From Basidiobolus meristosporus CBS 931.73 (Eukaryota; Basidiobolomycota; Basidiobolomycetes; Basidiobolales; Basidiobolaceae), in contig MCFE01000974.1 in the NCBI GenBank assembly GCA_002104905.1, positions 1-22,629 on the forward strand: a DNA stretch of 22,629 nucleotides. The letters are read 5' to 3'. The notes beneath the pieces were generated by a model that had not been told where the DNA came from, ran no database searches, and saw nothing but the letters and a program-made list of their open reading frames with translations. Positions 15,046 to 22,629 of this stretch are shown here, in pieces (position 1 is the first letter of the stretch; every line of letters starts with the position of its first letter). The translations under genes were made by a program, and so were the position numbers.

Positions 15046-16861
15046 CAGATGATGACAAAACCTGATCTCAAGACCACCAATTGTCAGAGTTGAATCAGAG
15101 CAATACAATGAAATCTTTCTCATTCCAGAGGACTCTAAAACTATGGTTTAGCCTGTATCAGTGCCCATGAAGTCCTCAGAAGTGATCATTCTAGTATCAA
15201 ATGCTAGGAGATCCAACCAGACATGAAATAGCCTATGTTACTATATCAATGAGGGTACAAACTTAGCCTATGCCTCTTCAGTTCATATTGATGAGCCCCA
15301 GACTGTAAAAAAGGCTCTAAATGACCCTCTGGCAGAGTTTTGGAGATCTTCAATGCCTGAGGAGTATCAGGCCCGGATGGAGAATCAAACTTGGGACTTA
15401 TTCAAATTACCAATGAGCCAAAAATCAATTGGATGCAGCTAAGTCTTTGAGGCAAAGTACAAGGCTGATGGTACAATTGAAAGTTGCAAGTCAAGACTTG
15501 TGACCAATGGATACTCTCTAACAAAAAGACGACTATACTGAGATCTCTGCAATGGTAGTCAAGCTTAATTCCATCATATTAATAATGGCTACTGCAGCCA
15601 AGTTAAGTTTTTTATATATCAAATGAAAGTAAAGGCTACATTTTTTAACAGAGAACTAGATGAAGTTGTGTATATGGACCTGCCTGATGGGTTTGCTAAC
15701 CAACATAACCCCCATTTGGTCCACAAGCTTAAAGAATCTCTATAAGGTCTCAAACAAACACCAAAATCCTGGAATTGCAAGATAGATTCTTATTTGGAAT
15801 CTTCAACTTTCAAATGGAGTAATCCTGACAATAGTATATACTATAATCCAGATAGAGTAAGCTCATTTCTATTTGCTCTATATGTGGATCATCTAATTAT
15901 AGCCACTAATAATCTAGAAACATTGGAAGAGACTAAATACAGCCTATCTAAAGAGTTCAAGATGTCCAATTTAGGAGAACTCAATTACTACTTAAAGATA
16001 AAGCTCTCTATAGATGGAAGTACCCAGACTATTGCCCTAAGCCAATCCAAGTATATCCAAGATATACTAAACAAGTGCCAGATGGAAGACTGTAAACTGG
16101 CAGCTACCCCAAGGCAGACATACCTCAACTTGGTCAAAACATAACCAAATCAAGAGAGCTTAGTGCCATCTGAAAGCACTGACTTTCCTTATGAATCTAT
16201 GGTCAGCATTCTGATGTATGTTATGCTTGGACCACATCCAGATATCTCATATTCAGTGGGAGTTGTTAGCCAGCATAATCAGAACTATGGATCTGATCAT
16301 ATTGCAGCAGTTAAGTGGATTTTTAGATATCTAAAAGGAACTGCTGATATCTGGTTAAGGTATAATTATAAAGATTTGGAACAGGATTTTGTGGGATACT
16401 TTGATGCTGATTGGGGACATAACTTAGAAGATTGTAGATCCACCACAGGATACACCTTTCATTATTGTAAAGGAGAAATTTAATGGAACTCAAGAAAGCA
16501 ACCAACCATAGTACTCTCTACCACAGAGGCAGAATATATGGCAGCCTGTGAAGCTACAAACAAAATAATGTGGCTAAGAAAGCTTTTTACAGATTTAGGC
16601 CTATGTCAAAAAAGGCCTTTTACTTTATTTCAAGATCATGAAGGATGTATACAATTAAGTAGAAATCCAACTTTTCATGCTAGAACCAAGCACATAGATA
16701 TTAGACATCATCTCATACATGAAGTTATAGAGAATAGCTTAGTTAGCTTAGTTTACTCTCCTACAGATGAAATGGTTGCAGACATATTTACCAAACCATT
16801 AGCCAGAGACAAGTTTGAATATCTTAGGTCAAAATTAGGACTAGTCAGTATGAACATTTAG
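15046..16861 (+). pseudogene. Copia element 2 reverse transcriptase and RNase H
   Basis: After a poorly conserved linker, the RT begins near 15290 (EEYQARMENQTWDLFKLP). It continues in the same frame as Gag, with stops near 15440, 15540 and 15745. The palm has YMDLPDGF, a broken GLKQTPKSW, and the catalytic YVDD changed to YVDH in ALYVDHLIIATNN. RNase H follows with VGYFDADWG, TTEAEYMAACEA, and the C-terminal block MVADIFTKPLARDKFEYLRSK, ending in TAG at 16859-16861. The last ~100 residues are identical to those of the inverted element 3. Confidence 0.85.
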
Positions 16862-16872
16862 CTGAGTGGGAG
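16862..16872 (+). other. Polypurine tract of Copia element 2
   Basis: TGAGTGGGAG abuts the LTR start TGTTG at 16873 and begins one base after the pol stop codon. The same sequence is present at the mirrored position in element 3 (18363-18374). Confidence 0.75.
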
Positions 16873-17221
16873 TGTTGTAAAAATTTGTATTTCCACCTAA
16901 ATATTCACCTAACTTAGTCACTTAGATCATTACCTTCAAATCCTAAAGAATACTGACCAAATTCTGTGTTGGGATTTACTTAGAATATTTTCACCAAAAT
17001 ACCAGGTACCCAGAACATGAAAATTAGATAAGCTGTCCCAGCAGTCCCAAACTTTCTGCACATGTTCTTGGGACCTTTCTTGATCCATTCTATGTGTTTG
17101 TAATGCCAAGACCATGTAAAATTATAAATACTACTTTTACATTCAATAAATAACTTAGTGAAAACCACATAATCTACTTGTTCTCCCAGTCACTTCCAAT
17201 ATCTCCAAGACTCTTTCAACA
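16873..17221 (+). repeat. 3' LTR of Copia element 2
   Basis: 349 bp, TGTTGTAAAAATTTG to CTCTTTCAACA. It carries TATAAATA (17123-17130) and AATAAA (17145-17150). It differs from the 5' LTR at many places, often C in the 5' copy against T here (for example CACTCAG against TACTTAG). Its first ~50 bp are nearly identical to the LTR of element 3 instead. Confidence 0.88.
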
Positions 17222-17574
17222 AAAATAGAGTTTCAGAATGGGCCAACAGATCAATAATTGATATAGCAATACCTATGATCTCAGATCAAGAATTATCCAA
17301 CAATTTTTGTGTGGAGTCAGTTGCCACAGATGCATATCTTGAAAATAGGAATTACAAAAGAATACCTGGTGGTTTTATTCCATCAAAGGAGAGGTATAAA
17401 TATAGACAAAGTGCAGAACATCAAAAAATATATATGGGTCTACAGCATATGCCAAGAAACTGCCCAGAAATCAATCAGAATTTGAGCCACAAAGTTAAAA
17501 TGCATATTTTTGGCCTACTGCAATGGGAGTAAGGCATGCAGACTGTATGATACCAAACCAAAGAAGCAAGATCT
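17222..17574 (+). pseudogene. Copia integrase fragment of a further element
   Basis: The reading NRVSEWANRSII followed by NNFCVESVATDAYLENRN aligns with the integrase of element 2 at 11875-11989 (NGVAECANRLII ... FWVESVATAVY). It then continues into the normal downstream integrase region that element 2 lost to the nested transposon: a KERYKYRQS-like linker and a degenerate stretch before 17574. The catalytic glutamate region reads SEW. It has stops and a frame change. It is a third family-2 copy into which the LTR ending at 17221 appears to have inserted. Confidence 0.75.
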
Positions 17575-17893: not shown

Positions 17894-18013
17894 CAACTTA
17901 ATTGAAGAAGTAACTTCTAATTCAATGTGTATATCTGCTGTAATTATTAAGCTGAGTACATGTGTATATACTGTTGGACAATGTATTAGTCCTGTATGAA
18001 ACATATGTAAGCT
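17894..18013. other. Unassigned AT-rich spacer
   Basis: About 120 bp between the LTR relic and element 3. I see no coding sequence or match to other parts of the window. Confidence 0.4.
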
Positions 18014-18362
18014 TGTTGTAAGAGTCTTGGAGATATTGGAAGTGATTGGGAGAACAATTAGATTATATGGTTTTCACTTAATGATTTATTGAATGTAAGA
18101 GTAGTATTTATACTTTTACATAGTCTTGGCATCACAAACACATAAAATAGGTTAAGGAAGGTCCCAAGAGCATGGGTGTAGCTTTTGGGGCTGTTTGAAC
18201 AACTTTGAGAATTTTCTTGTTCTGGGTACCTGGTATTTTGGTGAAAAAATTCCAAGTAAATCCCAACACAGAATTTGGTCAGCATTCTCTGGGATATGAA
18301 TGTAATGATCTGAGTGACTAAGTTAGGTGAATATTTAGGTGGAAATACAAATTTTTGCAACA
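18014..18362 (-). repeat. 3' LTR of Copia element 3
   Basis: 349 bp with TGTTGTAAGAG and TTTTTGCAACA ends (plus-strand view). It holds the complement of TATAAATA at 18105-18112 and of AATAAA at 18085-18090. The polypurine tract (minus: GCTGAGTGGGAG) follows at 18363-18374. Confidence 0.88.
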
Positions 18363-18373
18363 CTCCCACTCAG

Positions 18374-19769
18374 CTAAATGTTCATACTGACTAGTCCTAA
18401 TTTTGACCTAAGATATTCAAACTTGTCTCTGGCTAATGGTTTGGTAAATATGTCTGCAACCATTTCATCTGTAGGAGAGTAAACTAAGCTAACTAAGCTA
18501 TTCTCTATAACTTCATGTATGAGATGATGTCTAATATCTATGTGCTTGGTTCTAGCATGAAAAGTTGGATTTCTACTTAATTGTATACATCCTTCATGGT
18601 CTTGAAATAAAGTAAAAGGCCTTTTTTGACATAGGCCTAAATCTGTAAAAAGCTTTCTTAACCACATTGCTTCTTTTGCAGCTTCACAGGCTACCATATA
18701 CTCTGCCTCTGTGGTGGAAATTGCTATGGTTGTTTGCTTTCTTGAATTCCATGAAACTGCTCCTTTACAATAAAGAAAGGTGTATCCTGTGGTTGATCTG
18801 CTATCTTCTAAGTTATGTCCCCAATGAGCATCAGAGTATCCCACATGATCCTGTTCTGAATCCTTATAAGTGTATCTTAATCAGATATCAGCAGTTCTTT
18901 TTATATATCTAAAAATCCACTTAACTGCTGCAATATGATCAGATCCATAGTTCTGATTATGTTGGCTGACAACTCCCACTGAATATGATAGATCTGGACA
19001 TGTTCTAAGCATGATATACATCAGACTGCTGACCATAGATTGCTAAGGCAAGTCAGGGCTTTCAGATGGCACCAGGCTCTCTTGATTTGGTTGAGTTCTG
19101 ACCAAGTTAAGTTGTGTCTCCATTGAGGTTGCTGCCAGTTTACAGTGTTTCATTTTGTACTTCTTTAGTATATCTTGAATATACTTGGATTGACTTAGGG
19201 TGATAGTCTGGGTACTTCTGTCTAGGGAGAACTTAACCCCTAAGTAGTTACTAAGTTCTCCTAGATTGGACATCTTGAACTCCTTAGATAGGCTGGATTT
19301 AGTCTCTTCCAATGTTTTAGGTTATTGGCAGCTATAATAAGATCATCCACATATAGAGCTAATAGAACTGGATTTGCTCTATCTGGCTTATAGTATATAC
19401 TATAGTCAGCATTACTCCATTTGAAAGTTGAAGATTCCAAATAAGAATCTATCTTGCAATTCCAGGCTCTTGGTGATTGTTTGAGACCATATAGTGACTT
19501 TTTAAGCTTGCAGACCAAATGGGGGTTATTTTGGTCAACAAACCCATCAGGCTGGTCCATGTACATGTCCTCATCAAATTCTCCATTCAGAATTGCAGTT
19601 TTACATCCATTTGATGAATAAAAAACTTATATTTTGCTGCAATAGCCAATATTAATCTGATGGACTTAAGCTTGTCTACTGGTACAAAGGTCTCAGTATA
19701 ATCAAGTCTTTTTGTTTGAGAGTATCCTTTGGCCACAAGTCTTGCTTTGTATCTTTTAATTGTACCATC
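18374..19769 (-). pseudogene. Copia element 3 reverse transcriptase and RNase H
   Basis: From 19769 downward: TIKRYKARLVAKGYSQ, DYTETFVPV and FIHQMDVK, then after a small break MYMDQPDGFVDQNNPH, KKSLYGLKQSPRAW and an intact catalytic ALYVDDLIIAANN. A frame change near 19320 leads to ETKSSLSKEFKMSNLGEL. Stops lie near 19043 and 18880. RNase H (18844-18374) is open for 156 codons with GYSDAHWG (an acidic residue of DADWG replaced by H) and TTEAEYMVACEAA, and ends in a C-terminal block identical to element 2. Of the Copia RTs in the window this is the only one with YVDD preserved. Confidence 0.87.
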
Positions 19770-20132: not shown

Positions 20133-20949
20133 AAGCTGTTACTCTCTGCAATGTCTACTACTGCTATTACTGGAATTTCTCCCTGTGCTGAAAAGTTGGA
20201 TGTATCTAACTACCAAATGTGGAAGGTGAAGATGAAGATGCTGCTACAAGAAAGAGGCCTTTAGGATATTGTCATGGGAGAAGAATGCCCTCCTAAAAAT
20301 GTGGGAGAGGAAGCCTTAAAGTACCAGAAGAAAGAACAAAGTGCCTTTAACTGCATTTGCCTTAATGTCAAGGACAAATTGCTAATTCAATGCTCAAGAG
20401 CAATAACGGCAAAGAATGCCTGAAAATCATTAGAAGACACCTATCAGTCATGTTCAGCTGCCAAGAAAATGTATCAGAGACAAAAATTCTTTACTACAAA
20501 GATGCTGCCAGGAGAAGAAATGAAAAATCTAATTAACAGAATTACCCTGCTGGTAGATGAGATGGAATCTGTGGGCATACCAACTACTGATGAGGATGTG
20601 CTAGTTACTATCCTGAATAGCCTGACAGACAGGTTTCAGGGCCTTGTATCAGCCCTAGAATCCAGAACTGAAGACTTGACCTTAAATTACGTATATGGAA
20701 GGCTCCTTGTTGAAGAATTATGAGAATCAAGTGCCAATAAGAAGGAAGAAGAAAATGCTTTAACAAGCAATGATAACCAACAAAGGAGGTACCCAAGACC
20801 ATACAAAGGCAACAGCAACCTGTTTTGCAACTACTGCAAAAGGAAAGGACACACATCAGACTGGTGTCTAAAAAAGAGAGATAATCAACAAAAGCAGCCT
20901 GAATATGGAAATGCTGCAACAACTGAAGATAGACTATTCATATCTGCAG
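20124..20949 (+). pseudogene. Copia element 4 Gag and zinc knuckle, truncated
   Basis: The reading MSPKLLLSAMSTTAIT starts in the primer site and is collinear with element 2 Gag. It covers YQMWKVKMKMLLQERG, a stop at 20262-20264 (TAG where element 2 has TGT), the KNLINRITLLVDEM and SLTDRFQGLVSALESR regions, a stop near 20721, and the CCHC knuckle CNYCKRKGHTSDWC near 20830. Reading frame and most residues are shared with element 2, but the stops are at different codons apart from shared weak spots. This shows independent decay of two copies from a coding ancestor. It ends at TCTGCAG, where the Gypsy LTR begins. Confidence 0.85.
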
Positions 20950-21101
20950 TGTTATGAATAGACACAAGGCAGGAGGAAAAGCTAGGCACGGCAGGAAAGG
21001 ACTTAGGTGTGGACCATCAAGGCAAGGCAGGATTCAAGGCAAGGCTGTTTATTCAAGACCTGTGTTTATCAGACTGAGGAATACTTAAGGGGGGATAGGA
21101 C

Positions 21102-21109
21102 TATATATA
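21102..21109 (-). promoter_or_regulatory. TATA box of the Gypsy LTR
   Basis: TATATATA, about 360 bp into the LTR from its 5' end in the element's orientation, a usual distance for a U3 promoter. It is the only strong TATA-like word in this LTR. Confidence 0.5.
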
Positions 21110-21354
21110 CTTTTTGGCTATACTGATGCCAAGAGATATTAGCTAATACTAATGGGGTTGTGGGGTGAGGCACAGCAATGGTGCTGGGGGTAATGACATA
21201 GATGACACGGCACTGAGACAGGATGGGGAAATGGATTGGGTCACCTGATCATGTGACTAAGTCATGTGACCTGGTATTTCCATATATGGTACTGGACTAT
21301 GAAAAATACGATGGAGAGCTTCCATGGAATGTTCCATTGTGTAACAATGGCTTG

Positions 21355-21397
21355 GAATGTTCAGGAACTTTCTGGAAGGTGGTAGAAGGTTCCAGAA
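21355..21397. promoter_or_regulatory. Heat-shock-element-like pentamer array
   Basis: Starting at 21355, every five bases reads GAA, TTC, GAA, TTC, GAA, (TGG), GAA, TTC, GAA: eight of nine alternating nGAAn/nTTCn pentamers. This is the binding pattern of the trimeric heat shock factor Hsf1, which normally needs three units. It lies about 250 bp upstream of the TATA box in the element's orientation. A further GAA-TG-TTC pair is at 21327-21334, out of register. Confidence 0.72.
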
Positions 21398-21470
21398 GGA
21401 ATTTCTTAGAAATTGAGCTAGGAAGCTGAAACTTGGCATGGGTTTTCATGGTTGTCATGTGATCATGACA

Positions 21471-22629
21471 CTATTCTCCTCTTCCAGGCAAAGCTCTGTT
21501 TCCCTTTGGGGCAGGTTTTGCAGGATATTGTTGGTGGAACTGGGTAACTAGATCTTGACAATTAGTGAGATGGGTAGCTGGTTCCCATGTTTGGTCACTT
21601 GGATCATAACCAATCCAGTCTACTAAGTAGTACAGCTTTGACTGGATATACTTGGAGTCTAGAATCTGTTTAACTTTAAATTCTTGATGTTGGTCAACCT
21701 GGATGGCTTGGGGCTTTGCTTCTTGCCGGTTTGGCAATGTGTTCCTACAATACGGCTCTAGGAGGGACACATGGAAAGTATCATGGATTTTCATACTTGC
21801 TGGTAACTGTAGCTGATATACTATAGGGCTAAGCTTCTTCTTGATCTTGAAGGGACCAAGTTTCTTGAAATCCAACTTGTCACAAGGGCGGTTGGTGCTG
21901 ATGTTTCTTCTGAGCAACCATATAGAATCTCCTTCATTAAGATCAGGGCTGGGATGCTGTTTTAGATTGGCAAATTTCTTGTAGCTTTCCTGAGCTAAGG
22001 ATAGCTCTTCCTTGAGGGTGTTCTGGATGTCCTGGATTGCTTGGGCATGTTCAGCCGCATGTGGGCTCATTGGGTTTGTTGGAATCTGGATATCAAACTG
22101 AGGGTGGAATCCATAGTTTGCATAGAATGGTGTAAAACCGGTTGCACTATGGCTTGAGTTGTTGTAGGCAAACTCAGCAACAGGGAGTAGATCAACCCAA
22201 TTGTCTTGCTGGTAATTGATATAGCACCGGAGGTATTGCTCTAGAATCTGGTTGATTCTTTCAGTCTGGCCATCAGACTGTGGATGGAAGGCAGTAGAGA
22301 GCTTGACTTGAACACCAAGGTATTGCATGAAGTGTTTCCAAAACTTGGACACAAACTGTGAGCCTCTATCTGACACAATATCACTGGGGATACCATGAAG
22401 GCGGAAAATATTCTTCAGGACTAAAGCAGCAGTTTCTTTTGCATCAGTGTTCTTACAGCAAGGGATGAAGTGAGCCATCTTGGTCAGCCAGTCAGCCACT
22501 ACAAGTATAGCATTGAAGCCACATGACTCAGGGAGGTCAGTAATGAAGTCCATAGATATAGATCTCCATTGGTGTTCCGGGATAGGCAAAGGTTGAAGAA
22601 GTCCATAGGGCTGGTGTCTGGCTGTTTTT
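21471..22629 (-). CDS. Gypsy Pol: integrase core and chromodomain (partial)
   Basis: A single open frame of about 386 codons runs from the window edge to TAG at 21473-21471; no true start is inside the window. It enters with the spacer between the integrase zinc region and core (HQPYGLLQPLPIPEHQW). The core follows with MDFITDLP (first D), SDIVSDRGSQF (second D) and FHPQSDGQTERINQ (catalytic E), then the GPY/F-like region (DKLDFKKLGPFKIKKKL) and HVSLLEPY. The C-terminus is a chromodomain: VKQILDSKYIQ, LYYLVDWIGYDPSDQTWEP, LVTQFHQQYP. Its aromatic residues (Y/Y, W, W) fit a methyl-lysine-binding cage that steers integration to heterochromatin in chromoviruses. No stop or frame shift was found, so it may be functional. 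Its stop codon touches the LTR, so the polypurine tract is coding. Confidence 0.93.
   Translation of the reverse strand, partial: KTARHQPYGLLQPLPIPEHQWRSISMDFITDLPESCGFNAILVVADWLTKMAHFIPCCKNTDAKETAALVLKNIFRLHGIPSDIVSDRGSQFVSKFWKHFMQYLGVQVKLSTAFHPQSDGQTERINQILEQYLRCYINYQQDNWVDLLPVAEFAYNNSSHSATGFTPFYANYGFHPQFDIQIPTNPMSPHAAEHAQAIQDIQNTLKEELSLAQESYKKFANLKQHPSPDLNEGDSIWLLRRNISTNRPCDKLDFKKLGPFKIKKKLSPIVYQLQLPASMKIHDTFHVSLLEPYCRNTLPNRQEAKPQAIQVDQHQEFKVKQILDSKYIQSKLYYLVDWIGYDPSDQTWEPATHLTNCQDLVTQFHQQYPAKPAPKGNRALPGRGE
21474..21485 (-). other. Polypurine tract of the Gypsy element
   Basis: The minus strand reads GGAAGAGGAGAA then TAG, followed at once by the LTR start TGTCATGA. The tract encodes the last residues of Pol (PGRGE). 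Confidence 0.75.

Follow-up and report, generated by a model that had tools for sequence, protein, structure and literature searches.

A candidate heat shock factor array in the long terminal repeat of a chromodomain Ty3/Gypsy retrotransposon of Basidiobolus meristosporus

The long terminal repeat (LTR) of a chromodomain Ty3/Gypsy retrotransposon in the fungus Basidiobolus meristosporus CBS 931.73 carries a nearly complete array of GAA and TTC triplets that probably constitutes a functional site for the host heat shock factor Hsf1. The array lies near the end of a 22,629-nucleotide contig (MCFE01000974.1 of assembly GCA_002104905.1), referred to here as the window, and would serve, some 300 bp ahead of the transcript start, as an upstream activating sequence for a Tf1-like element of the self-priming kind; we put the probability of this reading at roughly 0.7. 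Its support comes from an array that exceeds chance, spread of the array through the LTR family, conservation of the triplets against a sister family, a start site predicted without reference to the array, and a GAA motif of equal 10-bp step that precedes several host hsp70 genes. An Hsf1-like open frame elsewhere in the genome and recent activity of the family lend it further support.

The triplets at 5-bp steps from 21355 to 21397 read GAA TTC GAA TTC GAA TGG GAA TTC GAA. Re-reading of the window reproduces exactly the coordinates, the triplets and the single unbroken register given in a preliminary description of this DNA. Heat shock elements (HSEs) are made of repeated nGAAn units in alternating, gapped or stepped arrangement, and the nine pentamers combine eight triplets in GAA/TTC alternation with five GAA triplets at exact 10-bp steps across the 43 bp. 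A search of the whole window with the eight-triplet pattern, allowing up to three mismatches, returns a single match, which is exact, and none in 100 dinucleotide shuffles. The best nine-triplet register score is 8 in the LTR, against 3 in window positions 1–20949 and 2 in positions 21471–22629. The highest score in shuffled sequence is 4, both in 5,000 dinucleotide shuffles of the LTR and in 100 shuffles of the window. The earlier statement that such an array is very unlikely by chance in 521 bp is thereby borne out, and a chance origin of the array is rejected.

The window ends in the chromodomain Ty3/Gypsy element, which lies on the minus strand with the array in U3 of its 3′ LTR. This LTR (20950–21470, minus strand; 521 bp, TG...CA) belongs to a family that we call A; it matches other copies over its full length and with the same ends, and many copies with these ends are flanked by 5-bp target-site duplications or border on Pol or internal sequence on one side. 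The C-terminal part of Pol (21471–22628, minus strand) contains an integrase core followed by a Tf2-1-type SH3 domain and a chromodomain (PF00665, PF24626 and PF00385), the order of the Tf1/sushi type, and its stop codon at 21471–21473 stands directly before the LTR. Pol had been described as looking intact, a statement that can cover only its last 385 residues because the contig stops inside the element, with the Pol frame still open there; the rest of Pol is outside the window. The best 120 of 5315 matches in a homology search with Pol include Parasitella parasitica at 48% identity.

The array is common to the copies of family A. Genome searches gave 530 first-look candidates when the query was the LTR plus the Pol end and 681 when it was LTR sequence outside the array, 40 being scored in each case. 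We drew our family A sample from the opposite end of the LTR, 400 bp away from the array: a 33-base probe there has 197 matches with three or fewer mismatches, and the first 100 of these, listed and all with zero mismatch, make up the sample, which is blind to the array but biased to copies with an unchanged LTR end. The six-triplet core (triplets 3–5 and 7–9) occurs at 231 genome sites, the first 100 listed all being family A by eye, against 0 for a reversed control. Three or more consecutive GAA steps are kept in 90 of 95 sampled copies. Of the 96 sampled copies that cover position 21360, 94 carry G at this base and two share the TTC of the window; the second triplet of the family is therefore not TTC and the family form matches at seven of nine triplets. 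As such, the earlier count of eight out of nine stands for the window copy and fails as a description of the family, in which it is a rare variant. A run of five matching triplets occurs at six genome sites, five of them in this LTR. In the sister family A2, described below, 19 of 21 copies have TTC as triplet 2, which makes it possible that the window form predates the common family form.

Family A has also moved recently, as indicated by the 3 of 15 LTR pairs (assigned to one element by spacing and orientation) that are 100% identical. Matching 5-bp flanks, probably marking solo LTRs, occur in 34 of 118 rows, with one place counted twice (L075 and L140).

The position of the array relative to transcription can be judged from the internal bases of other copies. 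Thirty-three rows were taken as 5′ LTRs by their first five internal bases, eight of them displayed, and these continue internally with GTTTTATCAGACT. Eleven of its bases, TTTATCAGACT, recur within the LTR on its plus strand, where they mark a candidate self-primer (21065–21075, on the minus strand of the window). A match of 11 bases arises once in 2000 trials when the 20 internal bases are shuffled, and the 11-mer is exact in 92 of 100 sampled copies (one not covering). It stands 34 nt after a TATA box (TATATA, 21104–21109, minus strand; element position 362) contained in an 11-bp block (21100–21110) that is exact in 88 of 100 sampled copies, two not covering. From this Tf1-type match, in which the primer-binding site (PBS) would pair with the predicted mRNA end, we infer a transcript start near 21075, which places the array at about −280 to −322. 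The array had been assigned to U3 of a Gypsy LTR upstream of the TATA box; this assignment is supported, and the array also lies, within the LTR as in ONSEN-type elements, upstream of a start predicted independently of it.

A comparison of family A with its older relative A2 helps to separate the triplets from their surroundings. A2 was found in L133, a locus fetched for another site, and the A2 copy there carries the same self-primer 11-mer with TATATA nearby. A search with 291 bases of L133, array included, gave 392 candidates, of which 40 were scored; 20 of these and L133 itself make up the A2 sample of 21 copies. The two families are about 69% identical in U3, and the array aligns without gaps. 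The 24 triplet positions show an identity of 0.82 between the families, compared with 0.45 for the remaining 19 positions of the array and 0.685 for U3 outside it. Majority bases agree at 21 of 24 core positions versus 9 of 19 spacer positions (Fisher p 0.0057), and when the window copy stands for family A the core agrees at 22 of 24 (p 0.0018). A clear excess appears in phase 0 alone of the five phases, and of 289 offsets along U3 the true one alone reaches the contrast, for which base-matched resampling gives p 0.002 in this one comparison of two lineages. Triplets 3, 5, 7, 8 and 9 have identities of 0.86–0.99, while triplets 1, 2 and 4, at 0.62–0.66, are near the U3 average. This leaves GAA-n7-GAA-n7-GAA-n2-TTC-n2-GAA (21365–21397) as the conserved unit, a pattern found at 320 genome sites against 1 for the reversed control, the first 100 listed resembling A or A2 words by eye. 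At least three consecutive GAA steps are kept in 16 of 21 A2 copies. Such triplet-specific conservation between the families may be a signature of selection on the HSE.

Several host genes of a class expected to respond to heat share the step of the array. We took about 500 bp upstream of all 19 full-length Hsp70 matches among 28, and three GAA triplets at 10-bp steps are present in seven of the 19 regions, in every case 134–166 bp ahead of the point where the Hsp70 match begins; when the regions were shuffled 1000 times in two-base blocks, the mean was 0.12 and the maximum 2 of 19. The seven are partly duplicates, three having nearly the same word and four lying in one cluster on C416, and represent correspondingly fewer independent cases. 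That cluster (C416:1828-15285) holds five hsp70 genes in about 13.5 kb, four with step-type GAA motifs upstream. HSF DNA-binding domains above the Pfam cut-off are encoded at 19 loci by our tally of 25 genome matches, which is many for a fungus. An Hsf1-like open frame on C935 covers profile positions 28–100, the greater part of this domain, matches HSF2 and HSF1 structures by sequence, and has by eye a coiled-coil stretch behind the domain.

Taken together, these features suggest that heat may wake the element. Heat or another protein-damaging stress would load several Hsf1 trimers onto the row of GAA and TTC triplets, and their occupancy would raise transcription from the LTR, with more reverse transcription and new copies to follow. 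That Hsf1 binds the array, that heat induces the LTR and that transposition is affected are all steps that we infer from sequence.

Several observations weigh against this reading. Twelve of the 19 hsp70 upstream regions have no GAA step motif, and a perfect three-triplet alternating HSE is found in 2 of 19, a count that shuffles also reach (mean 0.11, maximum 2). The LTR array, at 280–322 bp upstream of the predicted start, is farther away than the motifs in the hsp70 regions. The full eight-triplet form is not the form that is kept, since 94 of 96 family A copies lack TTC at triplet 2 and A2 differs at triplets 1 (GAG in 21 of 21 copies) and 4 (TGC in 19 of 21). The contrast between the families rests partly on unusually diverged spacers, as resampling gives p 0.009 for the spacers alone and p 0.048 for the core alone. 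Within family A, diversity is 0.032 at the eight triplets versus 0.048 across the LTR once its first 60 bases are set aside, a difference that is not significant in base-matched resampling (p 0.14 for eight triplets, 0.23 for six). This lack of a signal is consistent with free decay of the copies once they have inserted. The scan of other copies that the preliminary description proposed returns the 231 core sites; the outcome that it named as refuting, decay of the triplets at the flanking rate, still fits the data within the family, the conservation signal being confined to the comparison between families.

The array could bind an HSF-domain protein, such as a constitutive Hsf1 or a Skn7- or Sfl1-like paralogue, for basal, oxidative-stress or developmental expression and not for heat induction. 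The number of HSF-domain loci is in keeping with such a role. So are published findings: in Candida albicans, Hsf1 targets are constitutive or heat-induced in relation to the arrangement of their GAA units (PMC4894976), and the roles of Hsf1, Sfl1 and Skn7 are described as overlapping or opposing (PMC12772356). Against it, the step of the array equals that of several host hsp70 genes, a class expected to be heat-inducible, and we consider this alternative rather unlikely.

Two further explanations dispense with an HSF altogether. The recurrence of GAA every 10 bp and the lack of significant conservation within family A are what one might see in a by-product of 10-bp tandem duplication or a chance run, with no factor bound; since conservation between A and A2 tracks the triplets and not the spacers, and shuffles never approach the array score, we hold this origin to be very improbable. 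The exact 10-bp GAA spacing over 43 bp would also suit DNA bending, the positioning of nucleosomes or recognition of GAA/TTC by some other factor, an idea that sits poorly with triplet 8: this TTC is half a turn out of step and is nevertheless kept at 0.95, compared with 0.86–0.99 for the GAA triplets 3, 5, 7 and 9, and we find this explanation scarcely credible. A functional Hsf1 site remains our preferred reading of the array.

Other parts of the LTR are also shared among copies. A second, short HSE-like block, TTCCATGGAATGTTCC (21320–21335), has GAA-n2-TTC in step with a TTC 7 bp before; it is whole in 77 of 100 sampled copies (four not covering), and its GAA-n2-TTC is present in 16 of 21 A2 copies. 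The sequence CCATATATGG (21280–21289), which we take to be a CArG-like or second TATA-like box, is exact in 77 of 100 sampled copies (four not covering) and in 11 of 21 A2 copies, and the blocks GATCATGTGACTA.GTCATGTGA at 21247–21269 are exact in 10 of 21 A2 copies. The blocks at 21247–21269 and 21280–21289 are possible sites for other factors. AATAAA at 21048–21053 (minus strand) is, from its sequence, a possible poly(A) signal in R. Low CpG content in the LTR might, as for ONSEN, point to escape from methylation, but we set this aside as uninformative because the whole window is CpG-poor (observed/expected 0.06 in the window, 0.14 in the LTR). Elsewhere in the window, a gag-like stretch with a zinc knuckle by eye (20500–20949) adjoins the LTR and is perhaps an older Copia remnant, and an inverted repeat (15918–17222 and 18013–19317) has arms of 1305 bp that are 90% complementary.

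Another LTR family, unrelated to A, also carries HSE-type arrays. A run of four perfect alternating triplets is found at 25 genome sites (reversed control, 5), of which five are in family A, thirteen in a repeat that we call B and seven elsewhere. Family B is exemplified by L138:3132-3935 (C213), with 12 other sites. Its LTR is about 803 bp long between its presumed ends; of 1767 first-look candidates 40 were scored. The interior has a tRNA-type PBS and two open frames, gag-like and protease-like, all by eye, and a Pfam search of this interior gave nothing beyond a sub-cut-off match to DUF4100. Two HSE clusters precede a TATTTAAGG box. The thirteen copies were selected by carrying the triplet pattern; in three rows not selected in this way, the first cluster has 3 of 4 triplets each time and the second has 3, 2 and 3. 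In a sister of B at 67–77% identity, the GAA-TTC-GAA of the second cluster is whole in 3 of 9 rows, which gives no sign of conservation between lineages for B. One of the other genomic occurrences, at L146:3514 (C613), places four perfect alternating triplets about 200 bp before an open frame with DUF3472 and chitin-binding domains that belongs to a multi-copy family.

The arrays in family B may hint at more than one case in this genome. That capture of the heat-shock response is recurrent in Basidiobolus LTR elements, with two sister chromodomain lineages and the unrelated family B carrying HSF arrays in U3, is a possibility we raise tentatively and on balance doubt. If it were true, a single heat pulse would activate several LTR families at once and spread HSF sites across the genome.

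A precedent for control by a host factor comes from a plant. Heat activation of ONSEN, a Ty1/Copia element of Arabidopsis, by a host HSF has been demonstrated (PMC3907296), and heat-shock-induced activation through host machinery is said to remain undescribed in fungi in a 2026 Cryptococcus study (PMC12810828). Family A resembles ONSEN in having an HSE in the LTR and a host HSF as driver, demonstrated for ONSEN and predicted here. It differs in that ONSEN is a plant Copia element studied with HSFA1 and HSFA2 mutants and gel shifts, and ours is a fungal chromodomain Ty3/Gypsy element with evidence confined to sequence. A near-complete HSE array, a possible selection signature, a predicted start and a matching hsp70 motif now make the fungal question directly testable.

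The preliminary description knew of no heat-inducible LTR for a fungal chromovirus, which is too strong a claim in view of the reported stress activation of MAGGY and putative HSEs in TCN12 and TCN3. MAGGY, from Magnaporthe, is a chromodomain Ty3/Gypsy element. For stress-induced activation of the MAGGY promoter, PMC3978060 cites Ikeda 2001, a paper with heat shock in its title; the term 'heat shock element' is absent from PMC3978060. MAGGY and family A are alike as fungal Ty3/Gypsy elements, the reported stress-induced promoter activation being MAGGY's feature. In Cryptococcus, TCN12 and TCN3 have one and two putative HSEs in their LTRs, respectively, and mobilise at 37 °C (PMC12810828, PMC12139950). 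Like family A, they are LTR elements of fungi whose LTRs contain putative HSEs; family A is distinguished from them by eight triplets in one register and by conservation against a sister family. Among the matches listed for B. meristosporus retrotransposons and the Basidiobolus heat-shock literature, with most subscription journals outside the coverage, no title dealt with heat-responsive LTRs in Basidiobolus. The array-bearing family is well supported, by its sequence features, as an addition to the fungal LTR elements already linked to HSEs or stress.

Two further systems bear on the arrangement of the element. Tf1/Tf2 and Tj1 of Schizosaccharomyces prime themselves through a PBS complementary to the mRNA 5′ end (PMC4600332), and the element described here has a similar predicted self-priming arrangement and a Tf2-1-type SH3 domain in a different host lineage. 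The step-type HSE of fungal Hsf1 targets, nTTCn7TTCn7TTC (PMC4894976), has the 10-bp step that we find in the array and in seven of 19 host hsp70 regions. The array departs from this arrangement in having five consecutive GAA steps interspersed with TTC, and in lying within a mobile element.
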